Assembly (NCBI GenBank): GCA_016125165.1
Contig: WGMH01000003.1
Coordinates: 310,001-374,000, forward strand
Direction of reading: 5' to 3'
DNA from: Alphaproteobacteria bacterium
GTDB taxonomy: Bacteria; Pseudomonadota; Alphaproteobacteria; Micropepsales; Micropepsaceae
DNA: 64,000 nt
Made by a program: the position numbers and the translations under genes. Shown piece by piece: positions 597 to 6,966 of the stretch; the first letter of the stretch is position 1, and each line of letters begins with the position of its first letter. The notes under the pieces were generated by a model. The model ran no database searches, had not been told where the DNA came from, and saw nothing but the letters and a program-made list of their open reading frames with translations.

Positions 597-3500
597 CTAA
601 ACCGTCTCGACCGCCGAAACGCCAGGCAGCGATTTGATGGCACCGCGCAGAGCGCCGGTAACGAGCTGGCGCTGCGGGAGTTTGATCTCCACTTCCTGAC
701 CGTGTTCGCCAGGCACCACGATAGTAACGATGCCTTTGCCGGGCGTTTTCAATTGCACGGCGATGGCGTTGAGGCCCGTCATGTTCTCCAGATAGATGCG
801 CAAGCCCTCGCCCGCATCGGCAGCGGCCTTTTCGAGATCGGACACCGAAAGCGCGCGCAGCTTCAGTTCCTCGCCTTCCCATGTGGCGTTCACTTTCAGC
901 AGCACGGACTTGCCAGCTTCCAGCAGCGGGCGCGAGGCCTGCAACACTTCAGGGAAGAACATCACTTCATACATGCCGGTGGGATCGGAGAACGACACGA
1001 ACGCATAGTTCTGGTCGTTGCGGCCGCGCCGCTCGGATTTGCGGATGATCGTGCCTGCCATCACCGGCTGCGAGGAAGAGCGGCGGTCCTCCAGAATTTG
1101 CGCATAGGTCGCAGCCTGAAGGCGCGTGAGCGCGGTGCGGTAATTGTCGAGCGGATGGCCCGACAGATAAAAGCCGATGGCGCTGAACTCTTCGCCGAGG
1201 CGCTCATGCGGCAGCCAATCTTCGGTGAGCAAGAGACGCAGGTCATTATCTTCCGGTGCGACATCGCCAAAGAGCGTGGACTGGCCGGTCTCCCGCTCGC
1301 GCGCGGTGCGGGCGGCATCGCTCAGTATGGCATCGGCGGATTCCACGAGCTGGCGGCGGTTGGGATTGAGGCCGTCGAACGCGCCCGCCTTCGCCAGGCT
1401 TTCAAACGCACGCTTGTTGACGAGCTTGGGATCGACCCTCCGCGCGAAATCGCCGATGGACTGGAACGGGCCCTCCGCCGCGCGCAGGTCGGTGACGTGA
1501 TCCATCGCCTGACGGCCAACACCTTTCACCGCGGCAAGCGCATAGAAGATCACCTGCTTTTCGTGATCGCATGTGAACGGTGCGGCAGAACGGTTGATGT
1601 CCGGCGGTAACACCTTGATGCCAAGCCGCTGTGCTTCCTGACGGAAGATATTGAGCCGGTCCGTGTTGCCGATATCGAGCGTCATCGAGGCGGCGAGAAA
1701 TTCCACCGGATAGTTCGCCTTCAGATAGGCTGTCTGGTAGGCCACCTGCGCATAGGCCGCGGCGTGGCCCTTGTTGAAGCCATAACCGGCAAATTTGGCG
1801 GCCTGTTCGAAAATGGAATCGGCAATCGACGGCAGAATGCCCTTCTCGCTAGCGCCCTTGACGAAGCGATTGCGATGAACCGCCATTTCACTGGCGATCT
1901 TCTTGCCCATCGCGCGGCGCAGCAGATCGGCTTCGCCGAGCGAATAGCCGGCAAGTTCGCGCGCAATGTTCATGACGTCTTCCTGATACGTCATGACGCC
2001 ATAGGTTTCTTTCAGGATCGGTTCGAGCGTCGGGTGCAGATATTCCGGCGGCTCCTTGCCGCTCTTCACGGCGATATATTTGGGGATCGAATCCATCGGG
2101 CCGGGGCGATAGAGCGCCACAAGGGCCACGAGGTCGTTGATGTGGTCGGGCCGCATCTTGCGCAGCAGGTCACGCATGCCCTGCCCTTCGAGCTGGAACA
2201 CACCCACGCTTTCACCGCGCGCCAGCATCTCGAATGTAGGCTTGTCGTCGAAGTCGATCTCCTGCGTGTTGAGATCGATTCCACGCTTCTTGAGAAGCTC
2301 CTCTGTCTTGGCGATGACGGTGAGCGTTTTCAGGCCGAGGAAGTCGAACTTCACGAGACCGGATTTTTCCGCGTCTTCATAGTCGAACTGTGTCACCGGC
2401 ATGGAAGCGCGGGGGTCGCGATAGAGCGGCACCAGTTCATCGAGCGGCCGGTCACCAATCACCACACCCGCAGGATGCGTGGAGGCGTGGCGGTAAAGCC
2501 CTTCGATCTTCTCCACGATGGAATAGAGCTGCCCTGCAATCGGCTCCTGTTCGGCGATCTGGCCGAGACGGGGTTCCATTTCCATCGCTTCTGACAGCGA
2601 AATGGACTTGCCGGGCGGATTGGGAATGAGCTTGGCGATACGATCTACAAGCCCCAGCGGCATCTGCAGCACGCGTCCCGCGTCGCGCACCGCCGCGCGG
2701 GCCTGCAGCGATCCCAGCGCGATGATATGCGCTACCTTGTCCACGCCGTATTTGTGCTGGACGTAGTGCACAACCTCGTCGCGCCGCTCCTGGCAAAAGT
2801 CGATATCGAAGTCCGGCATCGATATGCGTTCGGGATTGAGGAAGCGTTCAAACAGCAACCCGAAGCGCAAGGGATCGAGGTTCGTGATGTCGAGCGACCA
2901 GGCCACGAGCGACGTGGCGCCGGAGCCGCGCACGCCAACGGGAATGCCCTGCCCGCGCGTCCACTTCATGAAGTCGGACACGATCAGGAAGTAGCCCGGA
3001 AAATCCATGCGGATGATGACGCCAAGCTCGAATTCAAGCCGGTCGCGATAGACCTGTTCATCGGCAAAAAGGCCATGCTGCTTCAGCTTGGCGGCAAGGC
3101 CCGCTTCGGCCTGCGCGCGCAATTCCTCCGCCGGCGGCAGGCCGGATTCCGGCTCGAACTTCGGCAGAATGGGATTGCGCTTCTTCGGGCGGAATGCGCA
3201 GCGCTTGGCGATCTCCACCGTGTTCTCGATGGCTTCGGGCAGATCGGCAAACTGCACCTGCATCTCTTCCGCGGATTTGAAGCGGTGTTCGCGCGTCAGG
3301 CGTCGGCGGTCGGTCTGCGAGACATAAGTGCTGTCGGCGATGCAAAGGAGAGCATCGTGTGCCTCATACATGTCGGCGCTGGCGAAATGCACGTCATTGG
3401 TGGCGACCAGCGGCAGCTTCTTTTCATACGCCAGGTCGATCAGCAGGTCTTCGGCAGCGCGCTCCTCGGGCATGCCATGACGCTGAAGCTCCACATACAG

Positions 3501-4028
3501 GCGGTCCGGAAAAATTTGCGCGAGCCGGTCGAGCATGGCCGAGGCGGCCTCGCGCTGTCCCTCTGCTGCAAGGCGGTTGAGGGGACCGCCGGGGCCGCCC
3601 GTTAACGCGATCAGCCCTTCGGAATGTTCGGCAAGTTTGGCTGTGGCAACATGGGGCCAGTCACCCGCCTCCGCACCGAGATAGGCGGCGCTCAGAAGCT
3701 TGGAGAGATTGCGATACCCCGCATCGTTCTGCACCAGAAGCGGCAGCAGCGGCGGACGCGGACGCACCATGCCTGGCAGCGGCTGATCGGCTCCAAGCTC
3801 CACCGCCAGCAGCGCACCGGCGATGGGCTGTACACCCGCCTTGGCCAGCGTCTCGCTGATCTCGAAAACGCCGAAGAGGTTGTTGGTGTCCGTCACCGCG
3901 ACGGCAGGCATCGCGTTCTGGGTGGCGAGCTTCGCAAGCTCCTTGGGGCGCACCGCCCCTTCCAGCAGCGAATAGGCGCTTTTCACCCGCAAATGGACGA
4001 ATCCCGCCGGATTGCGCGGCTGCGCCAT
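597..4028 (-). CDS. dnaE: DNA polymerase III subunit alpha
   Basis: Replicative polymerase catalytic subunit of 1143 residues, normal for DnaE1. The N-terminal PHP domain begins at VHLRVKSAYSLLEG (about residues 10-210). The polymerase active-site motif PDFDIDF lies near residue 405. The thumb/finger region and tandem HhH part follow, then an OB-fold with GTIIRKSERRGRNDQNYAFVSF near residue 990. No intein or frameshift is seen. It lies 98 bp downstream of the SOS-box-controlled small ORF, with no terminator visible between them, so read-through from that promoter is possible. The long plus-strand ORFs over this gene are antisense shadows. Confidence 0.97.
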   Translation of the reverse strand: MAQPRNPAGFVHLRVKSAYSLLEGAVRPKELAKLATQNAMPAVAVTDTNNLFGVFEISETLAKAGVQPIAGALLAVELGADQPLPGMVRPRPPLLPLLVQNDAGYRNLSKLLSAAYLGAEAGDWPHVATAKLAEHSEGLIALTGGPGGPLNRLAAEGQREAASAMLDRLAQIFPDRLYVELQRHGMPEERAAEDLLIDLAYEKKLPLVATNDVHFASADMYEAHDALLCIADSTYVSQTDRRRLTREHRFKSAEEMQVQFADLPEAIENTVEIAKRCAFRPKKRNPILPKFEPESGLPPAEELRAQAEAGLAAKLKQHGLFADEQVYRDRLEFELGVIIRMDFPGYFLIVSDFMKWTRGQGIPVGVRGSGATSLVAWSLDITNLDPLRFGLLFERFLNPERISMPDFDIDFCQERRDEVVHYVQHKYGVDKVAHIIALGSLQARAAVRDAGRVLQMPLGLVDRIAKLIPNPPGKSISLSEAMEMEPRLGQIAEQEPIAGQLYSIVEKIEGLYRHASTHPAGVVIGDRPLDELVPLYRDPRASMPVTQFDYEDAEKSGLVKFDFLGLKTLTVIAKTEELLKKRGIDLNTQEIDFDDKPTFEMLARGESVGVFQLEGQGMRDLLRKMRPDHINDLVALVALYRPGPMDSIPKYIAVKSGKEPPEYLHPTLEPILKETYGVMTYQEDVMNIARELAGYSLGEADLLRRAMGKKIASEMAVHRNRFVKGASEKGILPSIADSIFEQAAKFAGYGFNKGHAAAYAQVAYQTAYLKANYPVEFLAASMTLDIGNTDRLNIFRQEAQRLGIKVLPPDINRSAAPFTCDHEKQVIFYALAAVKGVGRQAMDHVTDLRAAEGPFQSIGDFARRVDPKLVNKRAFESLAKAGAFDGLNPNRRQLVESADAILSDAARTARERETGQSTLFGDVAPEDNDLRLLLTEDWLPHERLGEEFSAIGFYLSGHPLDNYRTALTRLQAATYAQILEDRRSSSQPVMAGTIIRKSERRGRNDQNYAFVSFSDPTGMYEVMFFPEVLQASRPLLEAGKSVLLKVNATWEGEELKLRALSVSDLEKAAADAGEGLRIYLENMTGLNAIAVQLKTPGKGIVTIVVPGEHGQEVEIKLPQRQLVTGALRGAIKSLPGVSAVETV

Positions 4029-4126
4029 GACCCACCGATTCCTGTTATCGCGACCCCGTCAGTATCCGCACCACGCCCGCGAGCGCGACCCGGCAAACCC
4101 ACCCATCCACAAGAGGTGGACGATAC

Positions 4127-4219
4127 TCAGAACACCGATTGCGCGACGGAGGGCAGCGCAAAGGAACAGACCACGAAAATCAGAAACACAAATCCGGCGG
4201 CGGCGTCTTTCACCCACAT
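4127..4219 (-). CDS. Small (30 aa) inner-membrane protein under a LexA-type box; SidA-like candidate
   Basis: Not in the ORF track because of its size. It reads MWVKDAAAGFVFLIFVVC..., ending SVAQSVF. A short charged N-terminus is followed by one hydrophobic helix (about residues 6-25). A strong Shine-Dalgarno GAGAGGAG precedes the ATG by about 8 bases. A perfect GTTC-N7-GTTC box lies about 30 bp upstream. dnaE follows in the same direction and lolD precedes it. Known: Caulobacter SidA is a 29-residue SOS-induced inner-membrane division inhibitor acting on FtsW. I recall, but could not check, that it lies beside dnaE there. The SidA function is inferred from size, topology, box and context, not from sequence identity. 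An alternative is an unrelated single-pass small protein. Confidence 0.65.
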   Translation of the reverse strand: MWVKDAAAGFVFLIFVVCSFALPSVAQSVF

Positions 4220-4248
4220 GGCCCTTGCTCCTCTCGAATGAAATTGAT

Positions 4249-4263
4249 GTTCTCATATTGTTC
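4249..4263. promoter_or_regulatory. LexA (SOS) box, GTTC-N7-GTTC
   Basis: GTTCTCATATTGTTC matches the alphaproteobacterial LexA direct-repeat consensus GTTC-N7-GTTC exactly. It is 30 bp upstream of the small ORF start. A TTGACC hexamer on the minus strand (plus 4271-4276) would be the -35, so the box would cover the -10 region and repression by occlusion fits. It is the only perfect copy I noticed in an intergenic region of this window. Confidence 0.75.
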
Positions 4264-4334
4264 TCATTGCGGTCAAGAACAAAACGTGACCGTTGGCGCA
4301 AAATTTCGCGACCTATGCCAACTATTTGAAAATA

Positions 4335-5051
4335 CTAGATTTTATGAGCCGTGAACTTACCGCCATCGACGATGTGGCCGTCCTGCATGACCAGCGTGCG
4401 GTCCATCTTAGCGGCGAGATCGAAATTGTGCGTGGCCACCAGCGCCGCCACCTTCTCCGCTCGCGCCAGCGCGATCAGAAGATCGAACACTCCGCCGGCG
4501 GTGCGCGGATCAAGGTTGCCCGTCGGCTCATCCGCCAAAAGCAGGCGGGGATGATTGGCAATGGCGCGCACGATGGCGACACGTTGCTGTTCGCCACCCG
4601 ACAGCTGCGAGGGGCGGTGTTCTATGCGCTGACCAAGGCCGACCAGTTCCAAAAGCCGCCTGGCTTCCGCCCTGGCCGCCTTCTTGGGAACGCCCGCGAT
4701 CATCTGCGGCAGCATGACGTTCTCCAGCGCCGAGAACTCCGGCAAGAGATGATGCGCCTGATAGACGAAGCCGATGGAGTCGCGGCGGATGCGCGTGCGC
4801 TCCGCATCGCTGGCACGCGAGGCCGCCTGCCCGCTGATGAAGATTTCGCCCTCGCTCGGCGATTCCAGAAGACCGGCCATATGCAGCATGGACGACTTGC
4901 CCGCGCCCGATGGGCCGACCAGCGCAACCACTTCGCCGGGCTGGATCGCCACGTTCACATGATGGAACACGACCAGCAGGTTCTGGCCTTGATGATAGGT
5001 GCGCGAGACATGCTGAAGGTTGAGCGCGGCGGGCGCGTAGGCGTCACTCAT
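4335..5051 (-). CDS. lolD: Lipoprotein-releasing ABC transporter, ATP-binding subunit LolD
   Basis: Cytoplasmic ATPase of the Lol complex, which extracts outer-membrane-directed lipoproteins from the inner membrane. It has 238 residues. Walker A GPSGAGKSS is near residue 44, the Q-loop is YQAHHLLPEF, the ABC signature LSGGEQQRVAI is near residue 147 and Walker B is LLLADEPTGNLD. The start overlaps the end of lolC by 8 bases, so both are translated from one message. The MacB/FtsE-type ATPases are close relatives, but the LolC partner settles the assignment. Confidence 0.93.
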   Translation of the reverse strand: MSDAYAPAALNLQHVSRTYHQGQNLLVVFHHVNVAIQPGEVVALVGPSGAGKSSMLHMAGLLESPSEGEIFISGQAASRASDAERTRIRRDSIGFVYQAHHLLPEFSALENVMLPQMIAGVPKKAARAEARRLLELVGLGQRIEHRPSQLSGGEQQRVAIVRAIANHPRLLLADEPTGNLDPRTAGGVFDLLIALARAEKVAALVATHNFDLAAKMDRTLVMQDGHIVDGGKFTAHKI

Positions 5052-6384
5052 AACGAAGCGCCTCCACCGGATCGAGCTTGGCCGCGCGCCACGAAGGGTA
5101 AAGCGTTGCGAGGAAGGAAAGCCCCAGCGCCATCAGCACCACGGAGATCACTTCATCGGTTTCCATCTTCGCGGGCATGTGGCTGAGGAAATAGATTTCC
5201 GGATTAAAGAGTTCCGTGCCCATCAGGGACGACAGGAACTGCCGGATCGTTTCGATGTTGGAGCAGAACAGCACCCCGATCACAAAACCGAGAAGCGTGC
5301 CGATCACGCCGATGCTGGCACCCGAAATGAAGAAGATGCGCATCACTGCGCCGCGCGTGGCGCCCATGGTGCGCAGGATGGCGATATCGCCACTCTTGTC
5401 CTTCACCAGCATGATCAAGCCGGAAATGATGTTGAGCGCGGCCACCAGAATGATGAGCGTGAGGATGAGGAACATCACGTTGCGTTCCACTTCCAAGGCG
5501 CTGAACAACGTGGAGTTCACATCTTCCCACGACGATACGCGCGCATAGGGCCCGGCGGCATCGGCTACCGGGCCGACGAAGGAATTGATGTTGTCGGGGT
5601 TCGACACCATCACCTCCAGCGCGCTCACCGTGTCGCCCATGTTGAAGTAAAGCTGCGCTTCCTTCAGCGGCATGAAGATGAAGGTGGAATCGTATTCACT
5701 CATGCCGATACGGAAGGTGCCAGCAATGGTGTAGCTCTTCACCCGCGGCGTGGTGCCGAATGGGGTCACGTTGCCCTTGGGCGCGATGAGCGTGATCTGC
5801 TCGCCCGGCACAAGCCTGAGCTTGGCCGCCAGCCGGTAGCCCACGATCACTTCATCGCCGCTGTTGAAATTGTCGAGTGCGCCTTTCGACAGCGTGCTCG
5901 AAACGGAATTCAGCGATTTCAGGTTCGGCGTGGAGATGCCGCGCACGATGACGCCGAGATTGCCGCCATTGGCGCTGGCCATCACCTGCCCGTCCACGAT
6001 CGGGGCCGCGCGCGTGATGCCCGGTACGCCGCGCACGCGCTTGGCGATTTCGTCGTAATCCGGCAGGCCGCCCGCTGGGCCATTTACAAGGATGTGGCCG
6101 TTGAGACCGAGGATCTTGCCCAGAAGTTCATGGCGGAAGCCGTTCATCACCGCCATGACGATGATGAGCGTGGCGACGCCGAGCGCGATGCCCACCAGCG
6201 AGAAACCGGAGATGACCGAAACGAAACCTTCGGCCCGGCGCGAGCGCAGATAACGCAGCGCGATCATCCATTCGAACGGCGCAAAGGCGCGGGCCGGTTT
6301 GGACGGCGCGCGGCGGCGGTTCTCCTTCGGGGCCGCACCGATGCGTGCGGCAAGAGCCGGGTTTTGTGAGCGGCGGTCTTCCAT
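5044..6384 (-). CDS. lolC: Lipoprotein-releasing ABC transporter permease (LolC/LolE family)
   Basis: Inner-membrane permease of 446 residues. An N-terminal TM follows a basic tail (FEWMIALRYLRSRRAEGFVSVISGFSLVGIALGVATLI), then a MacB-like periplasmic domain, then three C-terminal TMs of the FtsX domain (LILTLIILVAALNIISGLIMLVKDKSGDIAILRTMGAT). Alphaproteobacteria usually carry a single LolC/E-type permease working as a dimer. The track starts at a TTG (6387), but an ATG at 6384 overlaps the antitoxin stop as TGATG and is the better start. The gene is therefore likely translationally coupled to the TA pair upstream, which is unusual for an essential transporter. Confidence 0.92.
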   Translation of the reverse strand: MEDRRSQNPALAARIGAAPKENRRRAPSKPARAFAPFEWMIALRYLRSRRAEGFVSVISGFSLVGIALGVATLIIVMAVMNGFRHELLGKILGLNGHILVNGPAGGLPDYDEIAKRVRGVPGITRAAPIVDGQVMASANGGNLGVIVRGISTPNLKSLNSVSSTLSKGALDNFNSGDEVIVGYRLAAKLRLVPGEQITLIAPKGNVTPFGTTPRVKSYTIAGTFRIGMSEYDSTFIFMPLKEAQLYFNMGDTVSALEVMVSNPDNINSFVGPVADAAGPYARVSSWEDVNSTLFSALEVERNVMFLILTLIILVAALNIISGLIMLVKDKSGDIAILRTMGATRGAVMRIFFISGASIGVIGTLLGFVIGVLFCSNIETIRQFLSSLMGTELFNPEIYFLSHMPAKMETDEVISVVLMALGLSFLATLYPSWRAAKLDPVEALRYE

Positions 6385-6668
6385 CAAGCCGCCAGCTTCA
6401 ATTTGAGACCGAGTGCATTGGCGACCTTGAGCAGTGTGTCGAGGCGCGGATTGCCATCCTTGGAAAGTGCCTTGTAGAGGCTTTCGCGGCCTAGACCCGT
6501 CTTCTTCGCAATCTTCGCCATGCCCTTCGCACGCGCAACGACACCGAGACCATAGGCGATCAACTGCGGATCGCCATCCTCGAAGATCGCTTCGAGATAA
6601 TTGGCGATATCTTCTTCAGTCTTCAGATAAGCGGCCGAGTCCCAAACTTTTGTCTTCAGCTTTGGCAT
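6384..6668 (-). CDS. Antitoxin of HigBA-like pair (HI1420 / COG3636 type HTH protein)
   Basis: The product is a 94-residue DNA-binding antidote. The C-terminal half is a Cro/XRE-type helix-turn-helix (MAKIAKKTGLGRESLYKALSKDGNPRLDTLLKVANALGLKLKL), characteristic of the HI1420 downstream-antidote family. The track ORF extends upstream through the toxin gene. MPKLKTK at 6668, one base after the toxin stop, is the family-like start. Its stop overlaps the lolC ATG (TGATG). It probably binds the palindrome before the toxin gene and autoregulates the operon. Confidence 0.88.
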   Translation of the reverse strand: MPKLKTKVWDSAAYLKTEEDIANYLEAIFEDGDPQLIAYGLGVVARAKGMAKIAKKTGLGRESLYKALSKDGNPRLDTLLKVANALGLKLKLAA

Positions 6669-6669
6669 T

Positions 6670-6966
6670 TCAACTTTTCTCCACTCGCGCCAACTCAAGT
6701 GCCTTGGATATGTCGTTCTTCTGGGTCCGCTTGTCGCCACCAGCCAGCAACAAATAAACAGTCTGATCGCGGCGCATATAGTAGACCCGGTAACCGGGGC
6801 CGTAGTCGATCCGCAGTTCCGAGACACCTTCACCTATCGGCTTCGCATCTCCGGGATTGCCTAGCGCCAGCCGGTCAATCCGCGCCTGAATGCGCACCCG
6901 AGCCCGCTCGTCGCGCAGACCGAAGTACCAAGCCTCAAAACCGCTTGTGTAGCGAATTTCAAACAT
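6670..6966 (-). CDS. Type II toxin, RelE/HigB-like (HI1419 / Gp49 family)
   Basis: The product has 98 residues. MFEIRYTSGFEAWYFGLRDERARVRIQARIDRLALGNPGD followed by GEGVSELRIDYGPGYRVYYMRRDQTVYLLLAGGDKRTQ is the diagnostic pattern of the upstream HI1419-type addiction killer proteins, presumed ribosome-dependent mRNA interferases. Order is toxin first, antitoxin second, with a 1-base gap. The conserved C-terminal KRTQ.KDI..A segment is complete, so the toxin looks intact. Confidence 0.88.
   Translation of the reverse strand: MFEIRYTSGFEAWYFGLRDERARVRIQARIDRLALGNPGDAKPIGEGVSELRIDYGPGYRVYYMRRDQTVYLLLAGGDKRTQKNDISKALELARVEKS

Follow-up and report, generated by a model that had tools for sequence, protein, structure and literature searches.

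The window analysed here, a 64,000-nucleotide stretch of DNA from an alphaproteobacterium of the Micropepsaceae, carries on its minus strand dnaE, the gene for the replicative DNA polymerase III alpha subunit (597..4028; TIGR00594, 1139.7 bits). Upstream of dnaE and on the same strand lies an ORF of 30 codons plus stop (MWVKDAAAGFVFLIFVVCSFALPSVAQSVF, 4127..4219), and the upstream neighbour of this ORF, which is also seen in synteny, encodes a lolD-type ABC transporter ATPase (4335..5051, minus strand). The ORF had been pointed out in a sequence-only reading that did not give its strand; it runs from 4219 to 4127. The hydrophobic helix described there was borne out by a Kyte-Doolittle maximum of 2.61 and by a predicted structure consisting of one helix (residues 2-29, mean pLDDT 90). 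The same is true of the strong Shine-Dalgarno sequence, read from the sequence as GAGAGGAG (4228..4235, minus strand) 8 nt 5' of the ATG, and of the perfect LexA box, said to lie about 30 bp upstream and found 29 nt from the ATG (4249..4263, minus strand; GAACAATATGAGAAC on the gene strand, GTTCTCATATTGTTC on the plus strand). The gap between the stop codon and dnaE is 98 bp as claimed, and a scan of positions 3950-4420 found no terminator-like site, in keeping with the claim that none separates the two genes. No Pfam or NCBIfam model covers the window micro-ORF, and searches of Pfam, PHROGs and PDB returned nothing useful. At some distance, between lolC and proS, the window also holds a likely toxin-antitoxin pair (6384-6966, minus strand): a Gp49/RelE-like toxin (PF05973) followed by a HigA-like antitoxin, the latter assigned by eye.

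Conservation of the ORF and its operator in Micropepsales

In a sample of 96 Micropepsales genomes, all from the one family of the order and with Rhizomicrobium electricum among the named relatives (Rhizomicrobium being the named genus closest to the window), a profile of the ORF matched in 68, although a few of the weakest matches outside the main genus may be due to chance. The consensus of the window family is MW-x-KDAAAGxGLxxFMVSSFxLAxxAQA. The sequence-only reading had proposed to compare synonymous with non-synonymous sites, and this comparison came out in its favour: summed over 24 independent nearest pairs, pN/pS is about 0.40 (Fisher p 7e-34), the pairs being small, so that single-pair values scatter while the sum is clear. 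Divergence at codon positions 1, 2 and 3 is 0.35, 0.26 and 0.53. Judged by these substitution patterns, purifying selection acts on this reading frame.

Is the LexA box a genuine operator? GTTCN7GTTC occurs five times in the window against 1.6 expected by chance, and the other four matches lie within or behind genes, none of them 5' of a gene. Across the genome GAACN7GAAC occurs 93 times, compared with 63 for the reversed control. With such numbers a lone motif match is weak evidence, and conservation is the test. This test, also suggested earlier, gave an unambiguous result, since a perfect GAACN7GAAC box stands 5' of the ORF in all 48 distinct Micropepsales coding sequences. We looked for the opposite outcome, namely the lack of a conserved ORF or box at this locus in related genomes, and did not find it. 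The distance from box to start codon is roughly 36-69 nt in 47 copies and 212 nt in the remaining one (L010). Twelve weaker-scoring copies, two of them from a sister genus, likewise all have the box and an adjacent dnaE. In the window genome the same motif precedes recA (L345; Pfam RecA), a ribonucleotide reductase gene (L357) and an imuA-type gene (L338). Pfam gave no match for the last of these, which was recognised by eye and from the dnaE2-type gene that follows it at about 2.2 kb. The GAACN7GAAC operator grammar is therefore valid in this organism, and the micro-ORF is predicted to be under LexA (DNA-damage) control.

Immediately upstream of the box lies a conserved promoter-like element, TTTTGTTCTTGAC (4269..4288, minus strand), a putative -35 region; TTGTTCTTG is found 5' of the box in 43 of the 48 copies. 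A generic sigma-70 scan found no promoter site. The LexA box would overlap the expected -10 region, an arrangement that fits repression by occlusion. GATC often stands ahead of TTTTGTTCTTGAC, and in 27/48 copies GATC is followed by TTTGTTC. Just past the ORF stop there is a further element, TGTGGAT(A/G) (4105..4111, minus strand), which resembles part of a DnaA box, the window copy having only 7/9 bases of the DnaA-box consensus. TGTGGAT follows the stop on the ORF strand in 42 of 48 copies against 0.18 expected, usually within 20 nt, and it keeps company with the ORF where dnaE is distant.

In most relatives dnaE is co-directional and begins 41-164 bp 3' of the ORF. In R. electricum (L261) and in L267, L257/L088 and L266 the two are 0.5-1.0 kb apart, and the box is still 48-69 nt 5' of the ORF. 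Because the box stays with the ORF where dnaE is separated, the operator belongs first to the ORF. The spacer in these genomes holds one or more DUF3788-family genes. Where ORF and dnaE are adjacent, read-through from one into the other, and with it the earlier suggestion that SOS induction might raise dnaE transcription, is possible.

Relationship to SidA of Caulobacter

We examined the region upstream of dnaE in 27 Caulobacteraceae genomes. The Caulobacter genome was picked by its DnaN, which is 100% identical to a chain of PDB 5wce, an entry we take to be the C. crescentus clamp. In 26 of the 27 loci an ORF of 24-30 aa, nearly always of about 29, stands directly 5' of dnaE, with one or two LexA boxes that are perfect or one base off. 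With 71.3 bits (cut-off 35), the 29-aa ORF of Caulobacter is matched from end to end by NF033228, the NCBIfam model 'cell division inhibitor SidA', and on its other side it is flanked by an inosine-uridine nucleoside hydrolase gene. Of the distinct Caulobacteraceae ORFs, 16 of 16 match the model at E up to 1. It has been reported that sidA is CCNA_02004 (PMC10769358) and that CCNA_02005, beside it, is a nucleoside hydrolase (PMC3667746). The profile match and this neighbour therefore place sidA immediately 5' of dnaE. In three genomes of one Caulobacteraceae genus (g58; L246, L247, L248) two perfect LexA boxes stand in tandem, 18 nt apart, 5' of sidA, whereas most other genomes have a single perfect box.

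The sequence link between the two families is indirect. NF033228 did not match the window ORF (E up to 10), the 30 aligned members of its family (E up to 1), the peptides of the intermediate families or, when searched there, the window locus. By hhalign, the intermediates (e.g. MADWIKDTAALLVLGAVMWSGFALTAAAQAVH) are linked both to the window family (probability 94.5, E 8e-8) and to SidA (probability 91.3, E 1e-6), with 0/150 column shuffles scoring as high in either case, whereas the direct comparison of window family and SidA is not significant (5/150 shuffles scoring as high). These E-values are for single comparisons and the N-terminal extensions of some intermediates were trimmed by hand, so that they are to be read as support and not as proof. 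The FVW core, invariant in SidA (A2), is absent from the window family (A1). When WxKD is aligned with the RxxRE start, F15 of the window family coincides with the F of this core. The SidA of another Caulobacteraceae genus, MSRWVKDMLSLASCGGFVWMVWQAAFLIG (L247), has both a window-type WVKD start and an FVWM core. Close to their C-terminus the SidA-like families share A-[QHKS]-x(A) (residues 26-28 in the window peptide), a motif which could serve in helix packing or be a signal peptidase-like site.

Like Caulobacter SidA (NF033228; CCNA_02004), the window ORF lies directly 5' of dnaE, has a GAACN7GAAC box, is nearly equal in length (30 versus 29 aa), is predicted here to form a single hydrophobic helix and is tied to it by profile comparison through intermediate families. 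Unlike SidA, its family has a WxKDAAAG start, has no FVW core and falls below the NF033228 cut-off. Locus, LexA box, length and bridging intermediates thus support the earlier proposal of a SidA counterpart, and the ORF is best read as a putative unannotated, divergent SidA ortholog.

Distribution in Alphaproteobacteria

A sequence-only search of Alphaproteobacteria found little beyond Micropepsales, and for this reason we turned to synteny. Among 130 dnaE loci sampled across the class, Caulobacteraceae being extra, a perfect box with a hydrophobic ORF of 30-47 aa behind it is present at 19, from 8 of 58 families; at the same loci the reversed and inverted control motifs gave 0 and 1, respectively. 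In total, LexA-boxed hydrophobic micro-ORFs at dnaE occur in at least nine families, the window's family and Caulobacteraceae included, while in most families of the sample dnaE is not accompanied by an ORF of this kind. On a DnaE tree, presence of the micro-ORF requires 8 changes against 30 with shuffled labels, a clustering that is helped by near-copies and that would fit inheritance with losses. In a sample of 387 genomes of the class, NF033228 scored above its cut-off in only one, which belongs to Caulobacteraceae; it is a conservative model for a fast-evolving micro-protein.

Proposed function and its alternatives

We consider it likely that the ORF is the Micropepsales sidA ortholog, LexA-repressed and induced by DNA damage, and that its product is a membrane peptide that delays division. 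For the window peptide we infer LexA binding, induction, membrane insertion, an FtsW target and division arrest. In an undamaged cell, LexA on the promoter box would repress the ORF. Upon DNA damage RecA would be activated and LexA cleaved, and the peptide would be made and take up its place in the inner membrane as a single helix. There, like SidA, it would act on the septal peptidoglycan machinery of late division (FtsW/FtsI/FtsN) and hold back constriction until the damage has been repaired. Action of SidA on FtsW/FtsI/FtsN and a delay of cytokinesis after damage are described in PMC4211646, citing Modell 2011, and for its contact with FtsW the TM7 face has been predicted (PMC13396833). That the target is the same as that of SidA would follow from orthology, although the core residues differ.

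Other damage-related division inhibitors offer points of comparison. DidA of Caulobacter, too, is a small membrane protein with a single helix, and DNA damage induces it, but unlike the window ORF it is 71 aa long, SOS-independent (activated by DriD), FtsN-binding and encoded at another locus (PMC4211646). YneA, SosA, ChiZ and DivS of Gram-positive bacteria are small membrane proteins that are induced by SOS or damage and act at a late stage of division, as proposed for the window peptide, and YneA binds FtsW (PMC13396833). In contrast to the window ORF they are longer and have extracytoplasmic parts (a LysM domain in ChiZ). They are not known to be related to it in sequence, and the resemblance is, as far as known, convergent.

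An SOS-induced ortholog at the SidA locus might nevertheless have another target or job, acting on some other divisome protein, as DidA does on FtsN, or as a general membrane-depolarising stress peptide of the kind represented by TisB and DinQ in E. coli. The WxKDAAAG start in place of FVW and the unmatched NF033228 model point in this direction, and SOS- or damage-induced micro-proteins with differing actions are known elsewhere (DidA, PMC4211646; DinQ, PMC3567139). However, locus and control are shared with SidA, the length is nearly equal and homology extends through the intermediates, and we regard this reading as unlikely. Far less probable is the role of a leader peptide or upstream ORF, in which translation, together with the LexA box, would mainly regulate dnaE. 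The close, co-directional dnaE of most relatives and the lack of a terminator-like site in the window would suit such a role, but conservation of the amino acid sequence is that of a membrane helix, WxKD and small residues included, box and ORF remain together across the long spacers of R. electricum and three relatives, and the equivalent position in Caulobacter is held by SidA, an effector. Slightly less probable again is a processed, signal-peptide-like precursor, with the C-terminal A[QHK]A as a signal peptidase site from which a fragment is released. Although AxA is found near the C-terminus in 37/48 Micropepsales copies, cleavage would leave only a few residues, the net side-chain charge is near neutral, unlike that of a typical signal peptide start, and the published description of SidA places it in the inner membrane (PMC4211646). 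Finally, a chance ORF beside a chance box, which the mild enrichment of the motif by itself in the window might suggest, has a negligible probability: box and ORF co-occur, boxed micro-ORFs across the class exceed control motifs, and conservation in 68 of 96 genomes together with purifying selection refutes it.

With LexA-boxed micro-ORFs at dnaE in at least nine families, many Alphaproteobacteria may possess an SOS division checkpoint, overlooked because its gene is only about 90 bp long and evolves fast. It is tempting to go further and to see in SidA an old checkpoint of the class and not a Caulobacter speciality, anchored at dnaE and so far diverged as to be traceable only by synteny and the LexA box, with TGTGGAT as a second conserved control element that could tie the unit to replication initiation as well; this we put forward as a tentative idea, well short of probable. 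Such micro-ORFs form a natural set (29-47 aa, with a shared WxKD/RxxRE start and a variable helix) in which the predicted contact with FtsW may be tested by comparison. More generally, the combination of synteny and operator is a recipe for revealing micro-proteins that are invisible to sequence search.
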